From a bacterium (GTDB taxonomy: Bacteria > Zhuqueibacterota > Zhuqueibacteria > Residuimicrobiales > Krinioviventaceae): a DNA stretch of 64,000 nucleotides. Of this stretch, positions 2,962 through 58,582 are shown piece by piece. Every line of letters starts with the position of its first letter. Positions within the stretch are counted from its first letter, which is position 1. The position numbers were made by a program, and so were the translations under genes. The stretch lies in the NCBI GenBank assembly GCA_029561455.1, contig JAKQIY010000020.1:1-64000 (forward strand), written 5' to 3'. A model generated the notes under the pieces. It had not been told where the DNA came from, did no database searches, and worked only from the letters and a program-made list of their open reading frames with translations.

Positions 2962-3726
2962 TTATTTTCGTACAATGCCGAATTTATCTATGGGACTTGC
3001 TTCTTTTAATATAATGGGTTCAAGTAATTTAAAAAAGCTTTGAATATTATATTTTTTTAGACTACCCTTTGGATATTCCTGCCTGTATAAACAATGTGCA
3101 ATTATATCTGTTGTTTGAATAAAATAGGAATGTTGTGAATTCCTGATAAATGGATCTTCAACAATATTATCTGTAATACATTGTACTATTCCACCAAATT
3201 TTGAGGGTATGGGATTGAAAACTCTCATTTTCCGTAATAAATACCTTACCAGATTTTCATCTGTTTGATCAGTTATTACTATACCGCTGGATTTTTCATG
3301 TTTTAAATAGTTATCATATCTTTGCAACAATCTGTTCCAGGCTAATTCTGCGTAATTTTTATAACTCCCACTCGGTGTTTTTCCTTTATCAATACATACA
3401 TTGATAATTTTACTTTTACTGAATATTATCGGAATACATGAAATGTAGTAACGCATTAAATCAATTCGTTTTACTTTAAAAATTTTTTTATATGATTCTA
3501 TTTTTTGTATTCGGATTAATTCAGACGCATGTATTTCTTCACGTATACCTAATCCATATTGCTTCTTTATTTCCCGCCTTAACTCTTTTAACCTCTGAAA
3601 ACATAGATTCCAATCTTGTTCGTTTATAATGAGACCGGATAATATAAAATGTTTTGAATTCTCATTACCTTGGATTTCACTTAAAACCCCGGGATCACCA
3701 CTCTCGTCCACATACATAAAATACAT
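2962..3726 (-). CDS. DUF3800 protein, predicted RNase H-like fold
   Basis: 254 residues. The N-terminal YVDESGD (residues 5-11) is the defining motif of DUF3800, and a C-terminal QTTDIIAHCLY supplies the second conserved Asp. The family is thought to adopt an RNase H-like fold with clustered acidic residues, and it is often found near phage-defence and mobile genes; its substrate is unknown. It is the last gene of an AT-rich minus-strand run: GHKL-nuclease fusion, methylase remnant (59 bp upstream), DUF3800. The low GC contrasts with the flanking tRNA and macrodomain genes and suggests transfer. Confidence 0.8.
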   Translation of the reverse strand: MYFMYVDESGDPGVLSEIQGNENSKHFILSGLIINEQDWNLCFQRLKELRREIKKQYGLGIREEIHASELIRIQKIESYKKIFKVKRIDLMRYYISCIPIIFSKSKIINVCIDKGKTPSGSYKNYAELAWNRLLQRYDNYLKHEKSSGIVITDQTDENLVRYLLRKMRVFNPIPSKFGGIVQCITDNIVEDPFIRNSQHSYFIQTTDIIAHCLYRQEYPKGSLKKYNIQSFFKLLEPIILKEASPIDKFGIVRK

Positions 3727-3785
3727 AGTTACACCCCTTAATTTGTTTACTATTCATCGTTATGGGTTTTGTGCATTGTATAACA

Positions 3786-4139
3786 TTATCCTCTTTCAAT
3801 AATCGCAATTTCTTCTTCCGTTAAATCATATAATTGGTAAACCAGGGCGTCGATCTCTTTTTCCCGGGCATCGGCGTCTTTATTCGCTGCTTTTGTTTGG
3901 ATGATCTCATCCACCAGGGTTTCGATTTTTTGCACAAGCAGATGATTCTCAGATGTGATGGGAGGCACTAACAACGGCTCCAATGCTTGAACACTGACAA
4001 TAACATCTCCTGTACCGGTTTTAGGCGCAAGATCGTAAAGCTGTTTATAAGCAACTTTGAAATTCATTACTCCATATAAAAGTAGTGAGTATAAAATATG
4101 CATTAAAATTATTTGCGAATCACTCGGTGTCATTTTCAA
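3786..4139 (-). pseudogene. C-terminal remnant of a type IIG/Eco57I-like DNA methylase
   Basis: 117 codons with no obvious start. The first part (LMHILYSLLLYG...TGTGDVIVSVQALEPLLVPP) fits the end of a TaqI/Eco57I-type target-recognition domain. The tail (KIETLVDEIIQTK...EIDALVYQLYDLTEEEIAIIE) is the characteristic coiled-coil and 'LVYxLYxLTxEEI' ending of type IIG restriction-methylases. The catalytic NPPY methylase part is absent. It is therefore read as a remnant of a restriction-modification gene, 39 bp after the GHKL-nuclease gene. A small stand-alone gene is possible but less likely. Confidence 0.6.
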
Positions 4140-4178
4140 TATTATTATCTTGTCTGTAATTTCATTTGTGCAAAAAAT

Positions 4179-6239
4179 TTATATTGACGGTAAACCTAAT
4201 TTATCAAAAAATGAGCGATTACGTTCTTTTGCCATATTTAATAATCTATCAAACGATAAAACTTCAATATAAGCATTATATGTTTTATGATAACCAAAAT
4301 ATCCTAGTTTATCTGCAGATACTGTCAGGTCAAGAATTTCACAACGTTCTTTTATTGTATCAGTTATATCAGAAATAATATAACAAAAACCAGGAATATT
4401 ACTTGAATCAGGTATTTGTCGCCCTAATTCAGTTTTTGCCCCTCCATTTCTAACTCTTTTAAGATATCCTAATGCTTGTTCAATTGGATCTTTATCTTCT
4501 CCTTGTTTTGCATCATTACGCATTGGTTTTTTTATTTCAATTACAGTTATTGATGCTAAAGGTAAGGATTGACCTTCATTTACTAATAATGGATTCTCAT
4601 AAATATTTAAAGCTAATAAATCAGGTTCTTTTTTTTCTTCAGAATTTGTTATAGGCATTGATTTAATACTTTTATCCGAAGCTAAATAATTATGAAAAGC
4701 TAATCTTTCATCAACCAACCATAAATTACTATCATCAAACATTAGTTCATTACTATTTTTTTGCATAGGCATAATGAGTTTATGGAGGACTTCTTCATTT
4801 AAGTATTTTCCATCTTTCTTTATTTGGATTGATTTTTCTAATAAGTCAAGAATAACTTTTCGATGTGCAACATAGTTTGCTAAATCAGATTTTTTTATAT
4901 CGCTAACTTTTAATAAGTATTCCTCAATGCGTCTAGAATATTCTTCATCATTCTCAAAACAATGTGGCTTCATTAAATCATGACCTTCTGTAAGAAGTTC
5001 ATTCTCGAATACCATAAGGTGTGTATGGAGCTTTAGCTCAAGTTCTTTGTCGGTAATATTAGGGTCTACAATCTTTTCATTCTCAGGAATTCGAGATAAA
5101 ATTGGTCTAAACCTAGGTGCTTTATTAGCTACGAAGTCTGTTAATTTTTTAAGTCCGATTTGTTTGTTTTCAATTAAAAATTTTTCTAAGTATTTAGTAA
5201 TATGTTTAATAGTTTCATTGCGTATTTCAGAAAAAGAGATTTCTTCATCAACAAATAGATCATCAATTGATTCAGAAATGTTAAAACCAATTCTTTCTGA
5301 ATTAACACTTTCAGTTAAATATTCCGAAGTTACAAAGCATAAATAACAAAAACTTTCATCTCCATCTTTTAAAACACCAAATAAACCTGGAATTTTACCA
5401 ACTAAAGATTCTTCTCTGACTACCCTATTAGCGGCACTATAGATTACAGAATGCTTATTTTGGAAAGTAGATCTTAGTTTTATATTCATTAACTCAAAAT
5501 TTCTGGATTTTATTTTATATGGTATCGACTCGGATGCATTAAACATAAAAGACTCATATTCTTTATTCAATAAAATAGTTTCGTCAACATCCATGACTGT
5601 AATGTCTGGGGCTCCTCCACTCCGTAAAAAATACCACAAACAATGCTCTAATAAAGCGTGTGCAATTTTAATGGCTGCTTTTGGTAAATATTTTTCATAT
5701 TCTTTATTAAAAAATTCTAAATTAACAGTGGTTTCAATTACACTGCTTTTTGAATCAATTAGATTATGATTATGTAGATCGTTTTGAATATTAAAATCAA
5801 ATGAACGTTTCTGTATATTATAATTTTCCTTGAATATGCTTATAATGTTTACTTTTTTAAAAGCTTTTAACCAAAGTAATCGTCCAACTCCACGTCCACC
5901 CAATTTAATTTTATAATCAGAATCAAGGGTTTGAAAAGAGTTAAAATTGTCTTCATTAAATCCAATACCATTATCAACAATTTCAAAACCTACAATTTTT
6001 GGTTTTACTGAGTTTTCGGCATTTAATTGAGTAGAGCGTTTAACTTTAATCTTTATATAACCTTCTCCAATATCGATATCGTGTTGTTTTTCAATTCTCT
6101 CATCAATTGCGTGGATTGAATTAATTACGGCTTCAAATAAGGGGAATAAAATATTTGTCTTTGGTAAATTTGTATTTCTAAGACGTCCCTTCAAACTAGT
6201 GTTTAAACTCATATTTTTCTCCACTTCTATAACTTTCAT
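4179..6239 (-). CDS. GHKL ATPase fused to a C-terminal PD-(D/E)xK nuclease
   Basis: 686 residues. The N-terminus holds the Bergerat ATP-binding fold: N box FEAVINSIHA (about 35-44), G1 box DNGIGF (89-94), G2 box GGRGVGR (114-120). The middle is probably the S5/transducer region and a helical linker. At the C-terminus PDLLALN (539-545), then ITVIEIKKP with E568-x-K570, then QALGYL (Q588..Y592) give a full PD-(D/E)xK nuclease signature with the Q-x3-Y motif of RecB/Mrr-like enzymes. GHKL ATPases of the MutL/MORC kind are known in prokaryotic restriction operons. The inferred role is ATP-gated DNA cleavage in defence. AT-rich, upstream of a methylase remnant and DUF3800. An ATG at about 6212 (MSLNTSLKG) is an alternative start. 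Confidence 0.78.
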   Translation of the reverse strand: MKVIEVEKNMSLNTSLKGRLRNTNLPKTNILFPLFEAVINSIHAIDERIEKQHDIDIGEGYIKIKVKRSTQLNAENSVKPKIVGFEIVDNGIGFNEDNFNSFQTLDSDYKIKLGGRGVGRLLWLKAFKKVNIISIFKENYNIQKRSFDFNIQNDLHNHNLIDSKSSVIETTVNLEFFNKEYEKYLPKAAIKIAHALLEHCLWYFLRSGGAPDITVMDVDETILLNKEYESFMFNASESIPYKIKSRNFELMNIKLRSTFQNKHSVIYSAANRVVREESLVGKIPGLFGVLKDGDESFCYLCFVTSEYLTESVNSERIGFNISESIDDLFVDEEISFSEIRNETIKHITKYLEKFLIENKQIGLKKLTDFVANKAPRFRPILSRIPENEKIVDPNITDKELELKLHTHLMVFENELLTEGHDLMKPHCFENDEEYSRRIEEYLLKVSDIKKSDLANYVAHRKVILDLLEKSIQIKKDGKYLNEEVLHKLIMPMQKNSNELMFDDSNLWLVDERLAFHNYLASDKSIKSMPITNSEEKKEPDLLALNIYENPLLVNEGQSLPLASITVIEIKKPMRNDAKQGEDKDPIEQALGYLKRVRNGGAKTELGRQIPDSSNIPGFCYIISDITDTIKERCEILDLTVSADKLGYFGYHKTYNAYIEVLSFDRLLNMAKERNRSFFDKLGLPSI

Positions 6240-18062: not shown

Positions 18063-19355
18063 TTAGTATGATGGTATTTCTGGAAGTTCACTATAAGTTC
18101 TGGCAACAAACAGATCCGGTCGTTGATTGCGCATTATAGCAACCCCTTTCTCAGTGACTTTTGTATTTACCACTAATACATTTTTAAGAGAATTTATTCT
18201 TATTAGATATTTTAAACTTTGATCGGAAATCTGATTTCCACGCAAATCGAGTGAACGAAGGAATTTGCAATTAATTAGGTATTTTAACCCTTTATCAGTG
18301 ATTTGTGAGTATGTCAATTCGAGATTATAAAGACTTGGGATGCTTGCAAGAAACAACATCCCTTTGTCACTAATAGCAGTAGAGTTCAACGAGAGATGAT
18401 TTAGATCAGGGAAGTTACTTAACAGATTTAGATCATCGTCGACAATTCTGGTATCGTTAAGACTCAACGATGTGAGAAGTTTAAGGCCTATCAAATTATT
18501 CAAACCGCGGCCAGTGATCTTATACCCATCTAACCGTAACAAGCGAAGTAATGGAAGACAACCAAGGTACTTCAAACCCTCGTCAGTTATTTGTATAGCC
18601 TGCTCAAAGTTAGAATTCATAGGTGTACTAAGAACAAGAGCTTCGAGACTAATAAGTTCCCCAATATATTGAAGTATAGAATCGTTGATAGGGGTATCAA
18701 GAAGGTTGAGTCTTTTAAGAGCAGGGAAACGATTAAGATATTGTAATTCCGATTCGGAAATGGTCGAGAGGGGAAAATCTAAGTTCGTGATTTTTAGAAG
18801 ATCAGTATTAGTAAGCTCATTTATTGTTTTTCCAACACCCCAAGCGATTTGTTCACGAATGCTTTCAGGTAGTGTGTTAATTGGTTCAATATCAAGTAGA
18901 CGGGTTGTATTCGTTTCCTTGTGATAGAGTTTGATACCTTCTTCAAGAGATCTTATAAGTTTTTCCAATCCTGCTTCTTTAAAAAGATCAACATACTGGA
19001 AACCCTTAAGCGGTTGGGGAATTTGGCACGGTTCTAAGCGTACAGGAATTAAATAGATATCATCTTCGAGCTTTTCATGCCAGAGTGATAAAGCAATCCT
19101 TATTTCTTTTCGTAGAAAACCACGTTTTGAAACAGAACGCGAGCTAAGAAAGACAAGTACAAAATCAGCATTCTTTAATGCGGTCATGATAGCTCCACTC
19201 CATCTCTGTCCCGGAATGAGATTGTGTTTATCCATCCAGGGTGTATAACCTGCAGTCTGAAGACTCGTAAAGGTTCTCTCTACTAAGTTTTCGTCCTCGC
19301 GTGCATAACTCAAGAATATGTTAGTTTTATTTTCTATCAATTTTCGTGTGTACAT
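18063..19355 (-). CDS. TIR domain fused to leucine-rich repeats
   Basis: 430 residues. Residues 10-140 form a TIR_2-type domain: NIFLSYARED, GYTPWMDKHNLIPGQRW, ADFVLVFLSSRSV and RKEIRIAL, with E84 at the position of the catalytic Glu of NAD-cleaving TIRs. Residues about 170-415 hold eight or nine leucine-rich repeats of about 24 residues (L..L.L..T.I.D.GL.YL). There is no nucleotide-binding domain between them and no signal or membrane segment, so the protein is cytosolic. TIR enzymes act in bacterial anti-phage defence by consuming NAD or making signal nucleotides. The LRRs could sense a ligand; this is inference. Single gene in an AT-rich stretch. Confidence 0.88.
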   Translation of the reverse strand: MYTRKLIENKTNIFLSYAREDENLVERTFTSLQTAGYTPWMDKHNLIPGQRWSGAIMTALKNADFVLVFLSSRSVSKRGFLRKEIRIALSLWHEKLEDDIYLIPVRLEPCQIPQPLKGFQYVDLFKEAGLEKLIRSLEEGIKLYHKETNTTRLLDIEPINTLPESIREQIAWGVGKTINELTNTDLLKITNLDFPLSTISESELQYLNRFPALKRLNLLDTPINDSILQYIGELISLEALVLSTPMNSNFEQAIQITDEGLKYLGCLPLLRLLRLDGYKITGRGLNNLIGLKLLTSLSLNDTRIVDDDLNLLSNFPDLNHLSLNSTAISDKGMLFLASIPSLYNLELTYSQITDKGLKYLINCKFLRSLDLRGNQISDQSLKYLIRINSLKNVLVVNTKVTEKGVAIMRNQRPDLFVARTYSELPEIPSY

Positions 19356-49579: not shown

Positions 49580-50041
49580 ATGAGCGCTTTTCGTTATATT
49601 TTGTATGCAGCGTTGATCGCCGCTTTTTTGACGATTGCCTGTAAAAAGGACTATGCGACGGATAATCTGCACAGAGGTGCCAATATCCAGTACATACGCT
49701 TTACTGAAAACAATTGCCTGGAAACGTATGGCCTTGGCAAAACGTTAACGACCGACTATCGTGTAACGGGGTATGAGCTAAATGATAATGAACTCACTTT
49801 ACACATCCTTTATAAAGCCAATTGTTGCCCCGAATTTGCCGATCAGGTTACTATTATTGGCAACACGGTGGACATTGCCCTTGATGCTAACGACGCCGGT
49901 TGTTACTGTGAGTGCAACTTTATAAATGATTTTACTTTTCTCTATTACGGTAACGGCGCTATGCGGGTTATTTTCCGGCTCAGGGATATTGGCCAATCCG
50001 TTTATACGACCCATATCGATACCCTGCTAAACATTCAATAA
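49580..50041 (+). CDS. tandem lipoprotein family, member 1
   Basis: 153 residues. The lipoprotein signal ends AFLTIAC (Cys21) and is followed by KKD, which suggests inner-membrane or periplasmic retention rules that are not known for this phylum. The mature part follows a pattern shared by five consecutive genes: IQYIRFTENNC, a short variable stretch, ELTLHILYKANCCPEFAD, a variable stretch, CYCECNFINDFTFLYYG, MRVIFRL and IDTLLNI near the end. Cys appear as NNC, NCC and CxCxC, which could make disulfides or bind metal. No known family is recognised. It is first in a six-gene operon. Confidence 0.8.
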   Translation: MSAFRYILYAALIAAFLTIACKKDYATDNLHRGANIQYIRFTENNCLETYGLGKTLTTDYRVTGYELNDNELTLHILYKANCCPEFADQVTIIGNTVDIALDANDAGCYCECNFINDFTFLYYGNGAMRVIFRLRDIGQSVYTTHIDTLLNIQ

Positions 50042-50086
50042 ACAGACAATCAGTGGCTTGTAAACTCTATAACCGGGAGGATTATT

Positions 50087-50560
50087 ATGAGACGATTTTA
50101 TGTATTATTTGTGGTAGTGATGTGGATTGTATTACTTTCCTGCTTTGACAAACATGGCATGTATGTACCCGATAATGACGATTCGCTGCGATTTCTGTCT
50201 TTTACCGATAATCAATGCCAGGGGGAGCTGGCAAGTCTGGCTAAAGCATTGACCGGTCATGTATATATAATGGATCATTGCAAGAATGGCGATACATTAA
50301 CAATGAGAATTCATTATTCCGCCAACTGTTACCCTGGTTTTGTCAACGATGCTACTGTCGGTACGGATAGTATAGTTATTGCAATTGCAGATACAATCAG
50401 AGGCGCCCTGTGTATGTGCGAATATGAAAATGATTATCAATTTTTTTACCCCTATTACGGTAATGTGCGGGTCATCTTTAAATGGTGGGATATACATCAC
50501 GAGTTTACAGAAACATATATGGATACAACAATCCAGGTCGGTAAAGCAAGGGATAATTGA
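50087..50560 (+). CDS. tandem lipoprotein family, member 2
   Basis: 157 residues. Lipobox VLLSC (Cys19). Family pattern: RFLSFTDNQCQGELASLAKA, DTLTMRIHYSANCYPGFVND, LCMCEYENDYQFFYPY, VRVIFKWWDI and YMDTTIQV. One Cys of the NCC pair is replaced by Tyr (NCYP). GGGAGG lies 6 bp before the ATG. It begins 45 bp after member 1. Confidence 0.8.
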   Translation: MRRFYVLFVVVMWIVLLSCFDKHGMYVPDNDDSLRFLSFTDNQCQGELASLAKALTGHVYIMDHCKNGDTLTMRIHYSANCYPGFVNDATVGTDSIVIAIADTIRGALCMCEYENDYQFFYPYYGNVRVIFKWWDIHHEFTETYMDTTIQVGKARDN

Positions 50561-50587
50561 GTACATTTCCGTTTAGTGAGGGTGTAT

Positions 50588-51052
50588 ATGCTGAAACCAT
50601 TAATAATATTAATTGTCATTTGTTTGACAGTCTCGGTTTATTATTGTAAGGATAACCACGATCCGCTTCAACCCAATACCTTAAATCCTGAACCACGCTA
50701 TCTGTCATTCGTTGATAATCCATGCCAGGGGCATCCCGGCAGCCTGGACAAAGCCATGAGCGATGATGCACGATTGGTGCAATATTTTCGTAAAGGCGAT
50801 ACTCTCACTTTGCAACTCCATTTTATCGCTAATTGCTGCCCCGCTTTTGTCGACAGCGCAGCGGTGAGCAAGGGTAATATTGTTATCTCGCTTGCCGATT
50901 CGCTGGGTAATTGCGACTGTATGTGTGATTACACTGATGATTTTAATTTCCTTTATCCATACGACGACGATGTGCATCTGGTTTTTCAGTGGTGGTATTT
51001 ACGAGCCGGACAGTTCTCTACGGCGCTGGATACAACGATTGTGATCATTTGA
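50588..51052 (+). CDS. tandem lipoprotein family, member 3
   Basis: 154 residues from ATG 50588 (an in-frame GTG at 50576 overlaps the GAGGGTG ribosome-binding site). Signal ending SVYYC (lipid Cys). Family pattern: RYLSFVDNPCQGHPGSLDKA, DTLTLQLHFIANCCPAFVDS, CDCMCDYTDDFNFLYPY, VHLVFQWWYL and ALDTTIVI. Its NCC/CDCMC cysteines are complete. Confidence 0.8.
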   Translation: MLKPLIILIVICLTVSVYYCKDNHDPLQPNTLNPEPRYLSFVDNPCQGHPGSLDKAMSDDARLVQYFRKGDTLTLQLHFIANCCPAFVDSAAVSKGNIVISLADSLGNCDCMCDYTDDFNFLYPYDDDVHLVFQWWYLRAGQFSTALDTTIVII

Positions 51053-51113
51053 TGAGAGCTGTTGAAATAAAAAGTCGGGAGTTGTGGTCTTTTTATTCAT
51101 TCAGGAGGATGGA

Positions 51114-51584
51114 ATGAAATATTTTTATCTGTTGTTACTGATTGTATGTATTACCTGTTTTATATTCAATTCCTGCAACAAAGATGATGAGCCTACTCAG
51201 GCGGGATTATCGACCCTGGATAAACCGGTTTACCTCTCTTTTATCAACCGCAATTGCCAGGGCAATGAGAGGGGACTGGATAAATCGTTGAGCGATGATT
51301 TTTATTTGAAAGAATATACCGTTTATAAAGATACCTTAATCCTGCGTTTTCGTTACCCGGCCAATTGTTGCCCGGCTTTTGTCGATAGCGCAGCGGTAGC
51401 GGACGGCACGATCATCATTGCTTTAAGCGATACCCTGAACGGCTGCCGGTGTATGTGCGATTATGAAAATGACTTTGTCTTTCTGTATAAACATAAAGGC
51501 GATCTGCATGTCATATTCAAATGGTGGCATATAAACTCCGATGAGTTTATTACCCAGGTTGATACTTTTATTCTGATCAATTAA
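51114..51584 (+). CDS. tandem lipoprotein family, member 4
   Basis: 156 residues from ATG 51114, with AGGAGG 5 bp before it. Lipobox ending FIFNSC. Family pattern: VYLSFINRNCQGNERGLDKS, DTLILRFRYPANCCPAFVDS, CRCMCDYENDFVFLYKH, LHVIFKWWHI and QVDTFILI. Members 3 and 4 share ANCCPAFVDSAAV exactly, so they are probably the most recent duplicates. Confidence 0.8.
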   Translation: MKYFYLLLLIVCITCFIFNSCNKDDEPTQAGLSTLDKPVYLSFINRNCQGNERGLDKSLSDDFYLKEYTVYKDTLILRFRYPANCCPAFVDSAAVADGTIIIALSDTLNGCRCMCDYENDFVFLYKHKGDLHVIFKWWHINSDEFITQVDTFILIN

Positions 51585-51630
51585 TAATATAATAATGTCA
51601 TCAATACTATTAATTAACAGGTAGTTGAAA

Positions 51631-52107
51631 ATGAAAACTAATTTTATACTTGCCTGTTTGCTTTTATGTACGGTATTTTTGCTGGTCTATTGCCATGAAC
51701 AATACCAACCGGTGAGCGTCGGGCAATGGGAGCCGCCGCAGCCGGTACGCTATCTCTCTTTTACTCACTATCCCTGGAACACCGAGGTTCCCGCCCTGGG
51801 TAAATCATTAGCCCATGGCGTTCAACTGGAAAATTTTCAGCTTGAAAAGGATACCCTTACTTTGCGATTACAATTATATGCGCGGGTTAGCGCCCAATTT
51901 ATTGATAGTGTGGCAATTAAAGATAATTGTTTAACTCTAATATTAGCTGATACAGTTTTGGGAGCGCGTTATTATAACTACTCTCAAGGTGATTTTAAAT
52001 TCCTCTACCCTTACGGAAAAAGCGCGGTGCGGGTAATTTTCAAATGGCGGAATTACCCGGACTATACATTTAAAACGCCGCTGGATACGATCATTCAGAT
52101 ATATTAA
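51631..52107 (+). CDS. tandem lipoprotein family, member 5, without the cysteines
   Basis: 158 residues from ATG 51631. Signal ending LLVYC. It keeps the family frame (RYLSFTHYPW, DTLTLRLQLYA, AQFIDSVAI, DFKFLYPYG, VRVIFKWRNY, PLDTIIQI) but every Cys of the mature domain is lost: NCCP is replaced by RVSA and CxCMC by ARYYNY. The domain thus does not need the cysteines to be kept, or this copy has a new role. It ends 10 bp before the CAP gene. Confidence 0.8.
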   Translation: MKTNFILACLLLCTVFLLVYCHEQYQPVSVGQWEPPQPVRYLSFTHYPWNTEVPALGKSLAHGVQLENFQLEKDTLTLRLQLYARVSAQFIDSVAIKDNCLTLILADTVLGARYYNYSQGDFKFLYPYGKSAVRVIFKWRNYPDYTFKTPLDTIIQIY

Positions 52108-52117
52108 TGGATAAATT

Positions 52118-52768
52118 ATGTATAAATCTTTATTCCTGCTATTTCTCTTCTTATTGGTAGCCTGTTTACCATACCACGCCGCCAACCAGGTAGCGCCCAC
52201 TATGAGCGATAATTCTGCAGTATCACCCGGCGATGTTCTTCAGGAAATTAACGCGGCACGAACGAATCCCCGGCAATACGCCGTTTATTTGGAACAATTG
52301 CGGCCATTATACAAGGGTAAATACCTGACCAAGCCGGGTCAGGTCACTCTGGTAACCAAAGAAGGCGCTCAAGCCCTGGAAGAGGCGATCCGCTTTTTAA
52401 AATCCACCACAGCAGTCCCATCACTGACACTTTCAACTGCTATGAGCCGCGCCGCCCTCGATCATGTGCAGGAGCAAGGCTGGAATGGCAAAACCGGACA
52501 CCAGGGCAAGGGCGGCAGTACCCCGGACAAGCGTTTGGCCCGTTATGGCGCCTGGCAGCACACCATAGGCGAAAATATCTCTTATGGCAGTGAAACTGCC
52601 CGCGATATTATCATCGACCTGCTGATCGATGACGGCGTTCCTGACCGGGGGCACCGCGCCAATATTTTTAATGCCGATTACAAAGTAACCGGTATTGCTT
52701 ATGGCCCGCATAGCCGTTATGGCTCTATTTGTGTAATATTATTTGCCGGCGGTTTTGTGGATAAATGA
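52118..52768 (+). CDS. CAP-domain (SCP/PR-1) lipoprotein
   Basis: 216 residues. Lipobox LLVAC. The CAP domain (about 38-210) shows the usual blocks: DVLQEINAARTNPRQYA, LSTAMSRAALDHVQEQG, GHQGKGG (H of the cavity), GENISYG (E of the cavity), DRGHRANIFNADYKVTGIAY and ICVILFAGGF. Bacterial CAP proteins are extracytoplasmic and variously bind lipids or cell-wall components. It starts 10 bp after lipoprotein 5, so it belongs to that operon. Confidence 0.9.
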   Translation: MYKSLFLLFLFLLVACLPYHAANQVAPTMSDNSAVSPGDVLQEINAARTNPRQYAVYLEQLRPLYKGKYLTKPGQVTLVTKEGAQALEEAIRFLKSTTAVPSLTLSTAMSRAALDHVQEQGWNGKTGHQGKGGSTPDKRLARYGAWQHTIGENISYGSETARDIIIDLLIDDGVPDRGHRANIFNADYKVTGIAYGPHSRYGSICVILFAGGFVDK

Positions 52769-52960: not shown

Positions 52961-54982
52961 ATGACTATAAAACGCAATAAAATAACATTCCTGGTTTTAC
53001 TTGCAGGTTTTATACTCGCACTGCACATATCCCAGGCCGGTTCCGCCGAGACTTTTTGTAATCCCCTGGATTTGAACTACCGGTTTATGAGCGATGCTGC
53101 CGATGCCCGCGAAGCGGCCGACCCGGTTATCGTTTTGTTTAAAGACGATTATTACCTGTTTGCTTCCCGTAGCGGCGGTTACTGGTATTCTAACGATATG
53201 CGCTCCTGGAATTTCGTGGTTATTCCCACATCTGCGCTGCCCATTATTGAAACTTATGCTCCGGCAGTATTTGTAATCGGCGATACCATGTATTACACCG
53301 CCAGCGTAGCCGGGCGATTATATAAATCTGCCGATCCCAAAGGCGGCGTATGGATTAAAGGCGATAAACTGAAAAGTTATGGCGATCCGGCGCTGTTCCT
53401 GGACGATGACGGCCGGGTCTTTATGTATCATGGTTTGTCCAATGTAACGCCTACCTGGGTTGTTGAACTGCGGCCGGACAGCCTGTTTGTGGAAAAGGGC
53501 GCGCAAGATACTATCGTCACCAACAATGCCGCCACGCATGGCTGGGAAAGACGCGGTGACGATAACTTGCTGGATGAACAACCCTGGATTGAGGGATCGT
53601 GGATGAATAAACATAACGGCATCTATTATTTGCAATATGCTGCTCCGGGCACTGAATTCAAAACCTATGCCGATGGTATTTATACCGCTACCGATCCGCT
53701 TGGTCCTTATAGCTATGCCAGCTATAGTCCTTTTTCTTTTAAACCCACCGGTTTTATTACCGGTGCAGGACACGGCAGCACCTTCCGGGATAAAGAAGGC
53801 CGTTACTGGCGGATCGTTACCTCGGTGATTTCTATTAAACACATGTTTGAACGCCGTCTTAGCCTTTACCCGGTGGGATTCGACACCGACAATGTCATTC
53901 ATACCAATACCGCCTTTGGCGATTATCCCCAGTTTTATCCGGGTGTGAAGGAAACGCCGGAAACCGATAATTTTGCCGGTTTTATGCTGCTTTCCCGTCT
54001 CAAAGAAGCGCAATGTTCTTCGGTATTAAAAGGATACAGCTTGAAGAATGCCGTCGATAATGATATTAAAACATATTGGTGCGCCGAAACCGGTAATGCC
54101 GGCGAATGGATGCAGCTTGATCTGGGTAAGGTGTGCCATATTCAGGCGATCCAGGTAAACCTGGGCGAGCATGGCACTACTCCAAAACTAGTGCGGGGAC
54201 GTACGGTTCAGGTTTATGAACAATACCATGTCGATGTTTCGAACGACGGTGTGGAATGGCAAACCATTATTGATAAAAGCGAAAATTTGCAGGATATTCC
54301 GCATTATTACACCGAGATTGACCCGGCGGTCGATGCCCGTTTTGTGCGCATCGTTAATGTATTCACTCCGGGCGAGGGTAAATTTGCAGTTCGTGATCTG
54401 CGTGTTTTCGGCAACTCTGCACAAGCGATGTACACTCCCATCACCGATTTCACCGTCGAGCGCAGCGAAGCCGATGGCCGCGACGCCGTTATCCGCTGGA
54501 ATCCGGTGGAAAACAGCGACGGCTATATTATTCGTTTTGGCACAGCTCCCACTAAATTATATAACAATTATATGGTTTATGACGCCGATAGTGTTGCCAT
54601 ACACAGCCTGAATCATGGCGTTGAATACTTTTTCTCAGTTGAGGCATTTGACAGCGGCACCGATTATTATTATGGTAATTACCCTGATAATGTTCAGGCT
54701 CCGTTGCTCAAGCCGGCGTCAAAATTTGAGTTGGAGCAGAATTATCCAAACCCTTTTAATCCGGTAACGAATATTACCTGGTCGTTACCGGCAGCCGGGG
54801 ATGTTACTGTGCAGGTTTTTAACTTGCTGGGTGAATTGGTTTATGAAAATACTTTTGCCCGGCAAAGCGCCGGCGTCCATCACCTGGCTTTTGATTGTAG
54901 CGGTTTAGCCAGCGGAATATATATTTACCGTGTTAAATCCGGCGCCTTTATGCAGCAAAAGAAAATGATGCTTTTAAAGTAA
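52961..54982 (+). CDS. GH43 glycosidase with CBM32-like and FN3 domains and type IX sorting tail
   Basis: 673 residues. Signal peptide 1-29. Five-bladed propeller of GH43 (33-340) with base D54 (REAADPVIVLF), pKa modulator D142 (YGDPALFLDDDG) and acid E211 (WIEGSWMNK). A discoidin/F5-8C-like domain (about 345-485; AVDNDIKTYWCAETGNAGEW) probably binds sugar. An FN3 domain (490-580) precedes the tail FELEQNYPNPFNP...GIYIYRVKSG. It is exported and displayed or released; arabinose- or xylose-containing hemicellulose is the probable substrate. Confidence 0.92.
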   Translation: MTIKRNKITFLVLLAGFILALHISQAGSAETFCNPLDLNYRFMSDAADAREAADPVIVLFKDDYYLFASRSGGYWYSNDMRSWNFVVIPTSALPIIETYAPAVFVIGDTMYYTASVAGRLYKSADPKGGVWIKGDKLKSYGDPALFLDDDGRVFMYHGLSNVTPTWVVELRPDSLFVEKGAQDTIVTNNAATHGWERRGDDNLLDEQPWIEGSWMNKHNGIYYLQYAAPGTEFKTYADGIYTATDPLGPYSYASYSPFSFKPTGFITGAGHGSTFRDKEGRYWRIVTSVISIKHMFERRLSLYPVGFDTDNVIHTNTAFGDYPQFYPGVKETPETDNFAGFMLLSRLKEAQCSSVLKGYSLKNAVDNDIKTYWCAETGNAGEWMQLDLGKVCHIQAIQVNLGEHGTTPKLVRGRTVQVYEQYHVDVSNDGVEWQTIIDKSENLQDIPHYYTEIDPAVDARFVRIVNVFTPGEGKFAVRDLRVFGNSAQAMYTPITDFTVERSEADGRDAVIRWNPVENSDGYIIRFGTAPTKLYNNYMVYDADSVAIHSLNHGVEYFFSVEAFDSGTDYYYGNYPDNVQAPLLKPASKFELEQNYPNPFNPVTNITWSLPAAGDVTVQVFNLLGELVYENTFARQSAGVHHLAFDCSGLASGIYIYRVKSGAFMQQKKMMLLK

Positions 54983-55041
54983 CCATATCATTTTTACGTA
55001 ATAAAAGATAATTATCAAGTATTAAAAAATGAGGTCGAGTT

Positions 55042-56598
55042 ATGAACAAATTTTTGCAACTAGTTACCCTGTTATGTTTTGTAATGTTTATTACCGTTGC
55101 CTTAGCCGGTGAAACCACAAACCGGATCATCGTGAATGCCGATTTGGGCAAGGAACAGATCAGTAAGCATATTTATGGACACTTTGCCGAACATCTTGGT
55201 AATTGTATTTATGGCGGTTTCTGGGTAGGAGAGGACTCGCCGATACCTAATACCCGTGGTATTCGCAATGATGTGTTAGAAGCAATGCGCGAGATCAAAC
55301 CCCCGGTCATCCGCTGGCCAGGCGGCTGTTTTGCCGATACATACCATTGGAAAGATGGTATCGGCCCCCGCGCCAATCGTCCGTCCATCATCAATACCAA
55401 TTGGGGTGGTGTAACTGAAGATAACAGCTTTGGTACTCACGAATTTCTAGATCTTTGTGAATTGCTGGAATGTGAACCCTATATTTGTGTCAATGTCGGC
55501 AGTGGCACAGTTCAGGAAGCTGCCGAATGGGTGGAATATATCAATTCGGATGCTGTAAGTCCGATGACCGAATTACGTAAAAAGAACGGTCGTGAAAAAC
55601 CTTGGAATGTAAAATACTGGGCGGTAGGTAATGAAAGCTGGGGCTGCGGCGGCAATATGACTCCCGAATATTATGCCGATCAGTTCAAGCGTTACGCCAC
55701 TTATATGAATGCTGGCAGGTTATACAAGGTTGCCAGTGGCGGCACCGACCCGGATTTTGCCTGGACCCGCACTGTTATGCAAAAAACACAAGCGTATCCC
55801 AATTTGATCCAGGGCTACTCCTTTCACTATTATTCTTTTTGTCGTGGTTGGAACGATAAGAGTTCCGCCATTCAGTTTAATGAAAATGACTGGTTCAACA
55901 CCATGAAGGTAACCTGGGTGGTTGATGAACGGTTGCGGCAGCACAGCAGTATCATGGATGAATTTGATCCGAACAATCGCATCGGTTTGATTGCCGACGA
56001 ATGGGGCAACTGGTTTTGGGTTGAACCCGGCACCAATCCCGGCTTTTTATACCAGCAAAACACGGTTCGTGATGCGGTAACTGCGGCTCTCTATCTGAAT
56101 ATATTTAACAATCAATGCCGCCGGGTAAAAATGGCCAATATTGCTCAGACCATTAATGTTTTACAAGCCATGCTGTTGACCAAAGACAACCAGATAGTCA
56201 AAACCCCCACTTTTTACGTGTTCAAAATGTTTAAAGTACACCAGGACGCCACCATGCTGCCTCTAGATATTCAATGTGAGGATTACAAATTCGAAAAAGA
56301 GCAAGTTCCGGCAGTCAGCGCTTCCGCTTCACGCGATGCGCAGGGTAAGGTTCATATCTCCCTGGCAAATATGAATCCCAATAAAAACATTGAATTATCG
56401 ATAGATGTGCGCGGCGCTGCTAAATTTGCCAAATCTGCCGGAGAAATTATTACCGGCCCGGCTATGAATTCCTATAATGATTTCGGCAAACCGGAGCAGG
56501 TTAATATTCAGGCATTCAAGGATTTCAAAATTAAAGATAATTCTCTTGTTATAAATTTACCGTCCAAATCTGTTGTTACCCTGGAATTAAGTAATTAA
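55042..56598 (+). CDS. abfA: GH51 alpha-L-arabinofuranosidase
   Basis: 518 residues, full length. Signal peptide (cleaved near ALAGE), so it acts outside the cytosol, unlike many GH51 enzymes. Acid/base E198 in WAVGNESWGCGG; nucleophile E320 in IADEWGNWF; RWPGGCFADTYHWKDGIGPR is the classic GH51 block. It removes arabinofuranosyl side chains from arabinoxylan or arabinan. It lies 59 bp after the GH43 gene and probably shares its transcript. A terminator follows. Confidence 0.95.
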   Translation: MNKFLQLVTLLCFVMFITVALAGETTNRIIVNADLGKEQISKHIYGHFAEHLGNCIYGGFWVGEDSPIPNTRGIRNDVLEAMREIKPPVIRWPGGCFADTYHWKDGIGPRANRPSIINTNWGGVTEDNSFGTHEFLDLCELLECEPYICVNVGSGTVQEAAEWVEYINSDAVSPMTELRKKNGREKPWNVKYWAVGNESWGCGGNMTPEYYADQFKRYATYMNAGRLYKVASGGTDPDFAWTRTVMQKTQAYPNLIQGYSFHYYSFCRGWNDKSSAIQFNENDWFNTMKVTWVVDERLRQHSSIMDEFDPNNRIGLIADEWGNWFWVEPGTNPGFLYQQNTVRDAVTAALYLNIFNNQCRRVKMANIAQTINVLQAMLLTKDNQIVKTPTFYVFKMFKVHQDATMLPLDIQCEDYKFEKEQVPAVSASASRDAQGKVHISLANMNPNKNIELSIDVRGAAKFAKSAGEIITGPAMNSYNDFGKPEQVNIQAFKDFKIKDNSLVINLPSKSVVTLELSN

Positions 56599-56698: not shown

Positions 56699-58582
56699 AT
56701 GAATAGATATATATTACAAATTTTAATAACCGTTTTTTCCCTTATTTCATGCGCACTCAATAAAACAACCCGGGATGGCGGACCGGATGCCCTGACCGAA
56801 ATGGCCCGATTGGCTGTGGACCTGGATTCGCTTACATTAGCTCAAAATACACAGATCACACAACAATTATCCGCATTATTCAAGCGTTATATTCATAAAA
56901 ATGACCTGCTGAACCCTGGTTACAGTCTGGAAAGTTTAACTGATCGCCTTGAAAAAACCTGGCCATTAGACAGTATGTTCTTATTTGCTTCGGCATTCCC
57001 CTGGCAGGATAGTATAGGGATTGCTTTCCGGGAATTGCGATTTCGTACCCTGGCTGCCGTTCAGGAAAGAATGGAAAAACTCTATCGCAACGATGAAGAC
57101 TTTACCCGGCTGCAAACCCTTAAGAATGAAATTGATAACGGTGATAAAAAGGCTGTTGACGATTATAATTCGACCCTGGAAAGATTTGAGAAACATGGTG
57201 ATTTTACTTTTAAAGAAAAAGTATCCTGGTTGTTAATTATCACCCAATACCAGGAACAATGCGGACGCCTGAAAACGGCTTGTTTAAATGAATTGATCGA
57301 TCTGTTACCGGAGCTTGAATCTGCATCTGTTCGCAAACAATGCTGGCAGGCAATTGCCGGCATGCTGGCAATAACCGATGTACTCCGCTCGGAATATAGT
57401 TATGCGCCGTTTCAACGCAGCGCCAGGGGTATTTTTATTGAAAAGGGCGTTCTGGTCAATACTCTGGCGTTTCGTAAAAATGCCGAGACCGATCCGGTAA
57501 ATATAAAACTGGCCCAACACATTCTGAATAAAGTACAAGATCAAACCAGCGCAAAACCGGATCGCGAATTTTTAGAGCGGGTTAAAGAATCACAGGCTTC
57601 CCGCGCTTTAATGCGGCAACAAATCCGTGATTATACGGTCGATTCCGATAGTGCAATTTATGAAACAGATACTTTAAAAGCGGCATACTGGTTTAAACGG
57701 GGGTATGAATCTATTGATCCGGATGAGCAAATTGCTTTTTACAGTAAAGCCATTCTTCTGGATGGCAAAATGGCAACGGCTTTAAATAATCGCGGTAATG
57801 TGTTGCAAAGCCTGCATAATGACAGTCTTGCAATAATAGACTATACCACTGCTTTAAGTATTGATCCCACTTATGGGCCGGCCTTTCTTAACCGGGGCAA
57901 TAGTTACCAAAATATAGGTGATTTTACTCGGGCTCTGCGCGATTATGATTCTGCTATCATGTTTTCGCCGGATAATATTAAATGTTATTATTACAGGGCG
58001 CATTGTAACCGTAATTTGGGTGAATATGAAGCGGCAATTTCCGATTATAAACGCGTTTCTGAAGCGAGTTCTGATCCTGAAATAATAGCAATGTCTTTTT
58101 ATTATTGTGGTTATTGTTTTAGCCGTATGCAAAATATTCAGCAAGCACTAGTTGAATATAAAAAAGCGCTGGAATTAAAACCTGCATTATCGATTGTTCA
58201 TCTGCATTGCGGCGATCTGTATCGGCAGGAAAAGGATTTTAGCAATGCCATTTCTGAATATGACCAGGCGCTTAATGCCGATGCCCAAAATATAAATGCA
58301 TTATATAACCGGGGTATTTGTTACAAAAATATTTCAAACTGGGATGCTGCCAAAGAGGATTTTCTTGCCATTACCAGAATTGACCCGAATCAGGCTGATG
58401 CCTGGTATTACCTGGGGTCAGTTTACTGGGAACAACGACAGTGGAACCAGGTAATCAATGCCTGGGAAAAATGTCTTGCCATCAACCCGGAACATTCTTT
58501 AGCCCGTGAATGGCTTCCACAAGCCCGGCAGTATACGCAAAAACGCACCCGTAAAATCACTATTCAAAAAACCATAGAGTAG
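56699..58582 (+). CDS. TPR-repeat lipoprotein
   Basis: 627 residues. Signal ending SLISC (lipid Cys18). The N-terminal half (30-320) is helical and unassigned. Residues about 335-610 hold seven or eight tetratricopeptide repeats (ALNNRGNVLQSLHNDSLAII, AFLNRGNSYQNIGDFTRALR, ALYNRGICYKNISNWDAAKE, AWYYLGSVYWEQRQWNQVIN). A scaffold or assembly function in the periplasm is likely. The tail is very basic (QKRTRKITIQK). It has its own promoter region after the GH51 terminator. Confidence 0.85.
   Translation: MNRYILQILITVFSLISCALNKTTRDGGPDALTEMARLAVDLDSLTLAQNTQITQQLSALFKRYIHKNDLLNPGYSLESLTDRLEKTWPLDSMFLFASAFPWQDSIGIAFRELRFRTLAAVQERMEKLYRNDEDFTRLQTLKNEIDNGDKKAVDDYNSTLERFEKHGDFTFKEKVSWLLIITQYQEQCGRLKTACLNELIDLLPELESASVRKQCWQAIAGMLAITDVLRSEYSYAPFQRSARGIFIEKGVLVNTLAFRKNAETDPVNIKLAQHILNKVQDQTSAKPDREFLERVKESQASRALMRQQIRDYTVDSDSAIYETDTLKAAYWFKRGYESIDPDEQIAFYSKAILLDGKMATALNNRGNVLQSLHNDSLAIIDYTTALSIDPTYGPAFLNRGNSYQNIGDFTRALRDYDSAIMFSPDNIKCYYYRAHCNRNLGEYEAAISDYKRVSEASSDPEIIAMSFYYCGYCFSRMQNIQQALVEYKKALELKPALSIVHLHCGDLYRQEKDFSNAISEYDQALNADAQNINALYNRGICYKNISNWDAAKEDFLAITRIDPNQADAWYYLGSVYWEQRQWNQVINAWEKCLAINPEHSLAREWLPQARQYTQKRTRKITIQKTIE

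Follow-up and report, generated by a model that had tools for sequence, protein, structure and literature searches.

What do five consecutive genes for small, similar lipoproteins do in the genome of a candidate division KSB1 bacterium, and do they work together with the CAP-domain gene that follows them? We addressed this question within a stretch of 64,000 nucleotides, called the window here, by comparing the five proteins with one another, with sequence and structure libraries, and with related genomes.

Layout and paralogy of the array

The five array genes are intact and are separated by intergenic gaps of 45, 27, 61 and 46 bp, with a further 10 bp between the last of them and the CAP gene (Table 1). 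An earlier note on this DNA had described exactly this arrangement of five consecutive genes of 153 to 158 codons, and its layout proved correct to the base. Most start codons are preceded by a purine-rich ribosome-binding stretch. Over their full length, the five proteins share 26 to 44% pairwise identity. With gene 4 as single query against the genome, the other four were recovered at E-values of 3e-44 to 2e-19 and the next best match scored 0.19, so the paralogy of the five is far beyond chance. The membership of gene 5 rests on this overall similarity (2e-19 in the gene 4 search) and not on cysteines.

Table 1. Coordinates of the array genes, the CAP gene and the TPR lipoprotein gene in the window
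Feature	Position	Strand	Length	Remarks
Paralogue 1 (W1)	49580..50041	+	153 codons/aa	All six motif cysteines present
Paralogue 2 (W2)	50087..50560	+	157 codons/aa	Covarying Cys pair absent (NCY / ALCMC)
Paralogue 3 (W3)	50588..51052	+	154 codons/aa	Counted from ATG; GTG 12 bp upstream is a possible start
Paralogue 4 (W4)	51114..51584	+	156 codons/aa	Structure modelled, all-beta
Paralogue 5 (W5)	51631..52107	+	158 codons/aa	Lacks all six motif cysteines; lipobox Cys kept
CAP-domain lipoprotein	52118..52768	+	216 aa	Pfam PF00188
TPR lipoprotein	56699..58582	+		Older neighbour of CAP

Library searches and relatives within KSB1

The array proteins and their relatives matched no family in Pfam or NCBIfam. 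When Pfam was searched up to E = 10 with genes 1 to 5, the only match was an unrelated one for gene 4. Nothing significant was found in a sequence search of the PDB, a plasmid search gave no match, and the literature yielded no paper on a family with the NCC/CxCxC pattern. The earlier note had recognised no known family, and this holds for Pfam, NCBIfam and the PDB.

Of 60 related genomes scanned with a profile of the five proteins, 7 contained relatives, and an enlarged profile placed the family in 10 of 82 KSB1 genomes. Similar arrays do exist in relatives. In a sister species of the same genus (G001; JAFGSB010000162.1, L028) three tandem copies are followed by CAP, and in another KSB1 genome (G072; JABMRT010000094.1, L029) two copies lie in tandem with no CAP behind them. 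The absence of such arrays from relatives, which the earlier note had named as evidence against its own reading, is thus not what was found. A third genome (G019; L023:5198-18737) has two copies that are nearly identical and lie 13 kb from each other, separated by an IS21-like transposase pair. Most of the remaining genomes have one copy each. In two KSB1 families a gene for an S33-type alpha/beta hydrolase lies directly upstream of members (L029:4958-5971 and L056:5274-6311). This hydrolase was rejected as a linked partner, as it was found upstream in two of the ten KSB1 genomes (G072 and G078).

In the tree, W1 clusters with its first-position counterpart from the sister array, within a clade supported at 78. 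The pairs W3/W4 (support 82) and S2/S3 (support 78) represent duplications that apparently post-date the split of the species, so the array grew in both lineages. Growth by repeated tandem duplication, as had been suggested, is supported, and the five genes are most likely a lineage-specific tandem expansion at the level of the genus. The suggestion that this divergence reflects diversifying selection did not find support. In every pair dN was below dS, with synonymous sites so saturated that neither the strength nor the kind of selection is measurable, and the identity of the first array gene to its sister orthologue (41%) resembles that of the TPR protein (37%) and lies below that of CAP (65%).

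Lipidation and the cysteine framework

A lipobox Cys was found in all 57 sequences that cover the site, as expected of bacterial lipoproteins, and in all five array proteins. Several family members have an atypical residue, Tyr or Phe, just before it; among these are genes 3 and 5 of the array, with an unusual Tyr at -1. The surface or periplasmic placement proposed earlier is supported as extracytoplasmic, and we infer that the array proteins are lipid-anchored in the outer membrane.

After the signal peptide with its lipidation-type Cys and a short linker comes a domain of about 110 residues with the pattern C..NCC..CxCxC. The shared motifs listed in the earlier note stand as a consensus for the first four genes, with deviations such as RFTENNC and CYCECNF in gene 1 and NCYP and ALCMC, which lack two of the six motif cysteines, in gene 2. 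They do not extend to the cysteines of gene 5, where the motif sites read PW, ARVSA and ARYYN. Accordingly, the core pattern C..NC..CxC together with a profile match was found in genes 1 to 4 and not in gene 5.

Two of the motif cysteines, the second of NCC and the first of CxCxC, come and go together. Among 105 distinct domains in which both positions could be read, duplicates having been removed, 78 have both, 27 have neither and none is discordant; an alignment-free recount of the same pair gave 78, 25 and 0. Wherever both positions were read, gains and losses of the two share branches of the tree, with about seven losses, a count that is approximate because the deep tree is poorly resolved. 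Such strict covariation is expected of two residues bonded to each other, and an optional disulfide between them, C86 and C111 in gene 4, is strongly indicated by the sequences. The other four motif cysteines are 91 to 97% conserved across the family, near-invariant except in gene 5, and would form the core cross-links (C48, C85, C113 and C115 in gene 4 numbering). Since the lipobox Cys was kept in gene 5 while the six of the motif all disappeared, it has a separate role, presumably lipidation. Not every copy needs the cysteine framework, as gene 5 illustrates.

A domain family beyond KSB1

A profile built from KSB1 sequences only (A4) matched proteins of other phyla at 1e-22 and 2e-21. Profile searches placed the domain in at least four further phylum-level groups, or at least five including KSB1, with members in 82 of 132 genomes of one outside group, 25 of 199 of another, and in small groups. 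Because the link across phyla runs via intermediate sequences, independently aligned profiles were compared. In hhalign the array clade matched three outside sets, one of which includes KSB1 members of the NCCPDSNRF type, with probabilities of 98.1, 97.1 and 97.6% (E-values 8.7e-14, 7.3e-11 and 3.4e-12), while column-shuffled and reversed controls did not exceed 1.5% probability.

Members outside KSB1 include lipoproteins (L065, L075, L124) and dockerin-type proteins (L071, L103); in L088 the domain stands ahead of a Por-type sorting tail, and 23 loci have two or three domains per ORF. The dockerin-bearing and Por-tailed secreted proteins (L071, L088, L099, L103) have the cysteine framework and the covarying pair in common with the array, are likewise extracytoplasmic, and also tend to occur in tandem. 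They differ in that the domain is frequently part of a larger secreted protein, in some cases with extra C-terminal cysteines, whereas each copy in the array is a lipoprotein with a single domain, whose C-terminal strand carries DT..I.

Families of small lipoproteins in tandem are common, and the array is ordinary in kind; it leads, however, to an unnamed and widespread domain family. This cross-phylum family, found in the majority of the genomes sampled from one phylum-level group, is the main gain of the analysis. A named profile with the predicted disulfide pattern would annotate many secreted proteins now called hypothetical and would open their function to structure and binding assays.

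The CAP gene and its neighbours

The sixth gene encodes a CAP-domain lipoprotein of the CAP superfamily (SCP/PR-1), with a Pfam match at 6e-12 and 46.9 bits against a cut-off of 21.1, and is the sole CAP gene of the assembly. Among NCBIfam families, its best partial match is DalA (NF052539), a divisome-associated lipoprotein, which binds peptidoglycan (PMC10470522). Identity with DalA was rejected, since the score of 34.3 bits is far under the equivalog cut-off of 200 and the partner genes differ.

Behind the sister array lies a CAP orthologue that is 65% identical and whose start overlaps the preceding stop by 1 bp, against the 10 bp of the window. In this genus CAP is probably co-transcribed with the array, and its tight coupling in both species could be a real functional link. 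Outside the genus the picture differs. This CAP subfamily is present in 5 of 82 KSB1 genomes, only two of which, both of this genus, have the array alongside, and 8 of the 10 KSB1 genomes with the NCC/CxCxC domain lack it. We therefore reject CAP as a general partner of the array: the linkage that had been proposed as a check was confirmed in both species of the genus, and elsewhere CAP adjoins a TPR gene with no array.

The CAP gene directly adjoins a homologous TPR lipoprotein gene in G001 and in G046, the latter a genome without the array, and G040 encodes a fusion of a CAP domain with a different TPR protein. In the window, two arabinosidase genes (52961-56598), namely one for a GH43 protein with F5/8 C and a Por-type tail and one for an alpha-L-arabinofuranosidase, separate CAP from the TPR gene. 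Given the adjacency of CAP and TPR elsewhere, we read CAP as a component of a CAP-TPR unit, with the array placed in front of it in this genus; it more probably works with the TPR lipoprotein encoded downstream, in an envelope or cell-wall related role. A macro-domain-like (ADP-ribose) gene lies directly upstream of CAP in G046 (L052:5952-6485), and a gene akin to it is found at 1729-2280 of the window, about 50 kb from CAP.

Predicted structure

Gene 4 was modelled with AlphaFold2, using as input only sequences from the window and from loci of relatives. The model is all-beta, with eight strands in the full protein and seven in the trimmed domain and a core pLDDT of about 78 to 93, and the array domain is thus predicted to be an all-beta sandwich. 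Foldseek found no significant match in the PDB (best E-value 0.015 for the full model and 1.9 for the trimmed one). The top credible matches of the full model, 3k0y (E 0.015), 3qwn (0.075) and 3k6o (0.5), are NigD-like or related lipoproteins of Bacteroides or Parabacteroides. These are beta-strand-rich lipoproteins like the array proteins, but the TM-scores were 0.27 to 0.32 with an rmsd of 6 to 13 Å, the matches were gone with the trimmed model, and there was no match in sequence. We rejected membership of the NigD family on the sequence comparison.

Proposed function of the array

Our preferred reading, held tentatively at a little under an even chance, is that the array is a genus-level expansion of an uncatalogued, outer-membrane-anchored binding domain, with CAP belonging mainly with TPR. 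Secreted proteins use the domain as a module, and by analogy the array proteins may be small lipid-anchored binding modules for adhesion or ligand capture. Tandem copies would then vary the binding face or raise the dosage, and the repeated domains of the dockerin and Por-secreted relatives may do likewise. The earlier interpretation is retained here as regards an uncatalogued extracytoplasmic family of paralogues; its diversifying selection and a CAP link beyond the genus are not.

The array proteins might instead be immunity or inhibitor lipoproteins, each copy neutralising a different toxin or lytic enzyme in the manner of NigD-like or lysozyme-inhibitor-like proteins. Tandem, small and divergent paralogues would fit this role, and the best credible fold matches of the full-length model point the same way. 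We consider it unlikely, however, given the poor superposition of those matches and their loss on trimming, the lack of any NigD Pfam match at E ≤ 10, and the fact that no toxin or bacteriocin gene was recognised beside the arrays seen; many relatives, moreover, are modules in large secreted proteins, unlike immunity proteins. Ranked below this is a single periplasmic complex of array, CAP and TPR lipoproteins that acts on the cell wall. In each of the two species of the genus the array sits immediately before CAP, which speaks for such a complex, as does the peptidoglycan binding of DalA, yet the similarity to DalA is remote (34 against 200 bits), three of the five KSB1 genomes with this CAP do not have the array alongside, most KSB1 genomes with the domain do without this CAP, and G046 pairs CAP with TPR in the array's absence.

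Lower again in our estimate, and distinctly improbable, is the broader view of the family as a cross-phylum, disulfide-stabilised beta-sandwich module for surface recognition, an immunoglobulin-like bacterial repertoire, in which the copies of this genus would be separately anchored receptors and gene 5 would need no disulfides. We give least credence to metal or redox proteins, in which the C..NC..CxC cysteines would be ligands of copper or zinc or would switch between the thiol and disulfide states. The high conservation of four cysteines and the CxC pair are in keeping with that role, but the fifth and sixth are only ever lost together, as expected of a structural disulfide, members were not seen to adjoin any metal or redox gene, and gene 5 is still an intact gene after losing all six.

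Other genes in the window

Two further loci of the window were recorded as possible defence genes. The gene at 18063-19355 encodes a TIR-like domain followed by leucine-rich repeats, and at 2962-6239 a DUF3800-like gene adjoins a GHKL-ATPase-like gene (686 aa), a possible defence pair.
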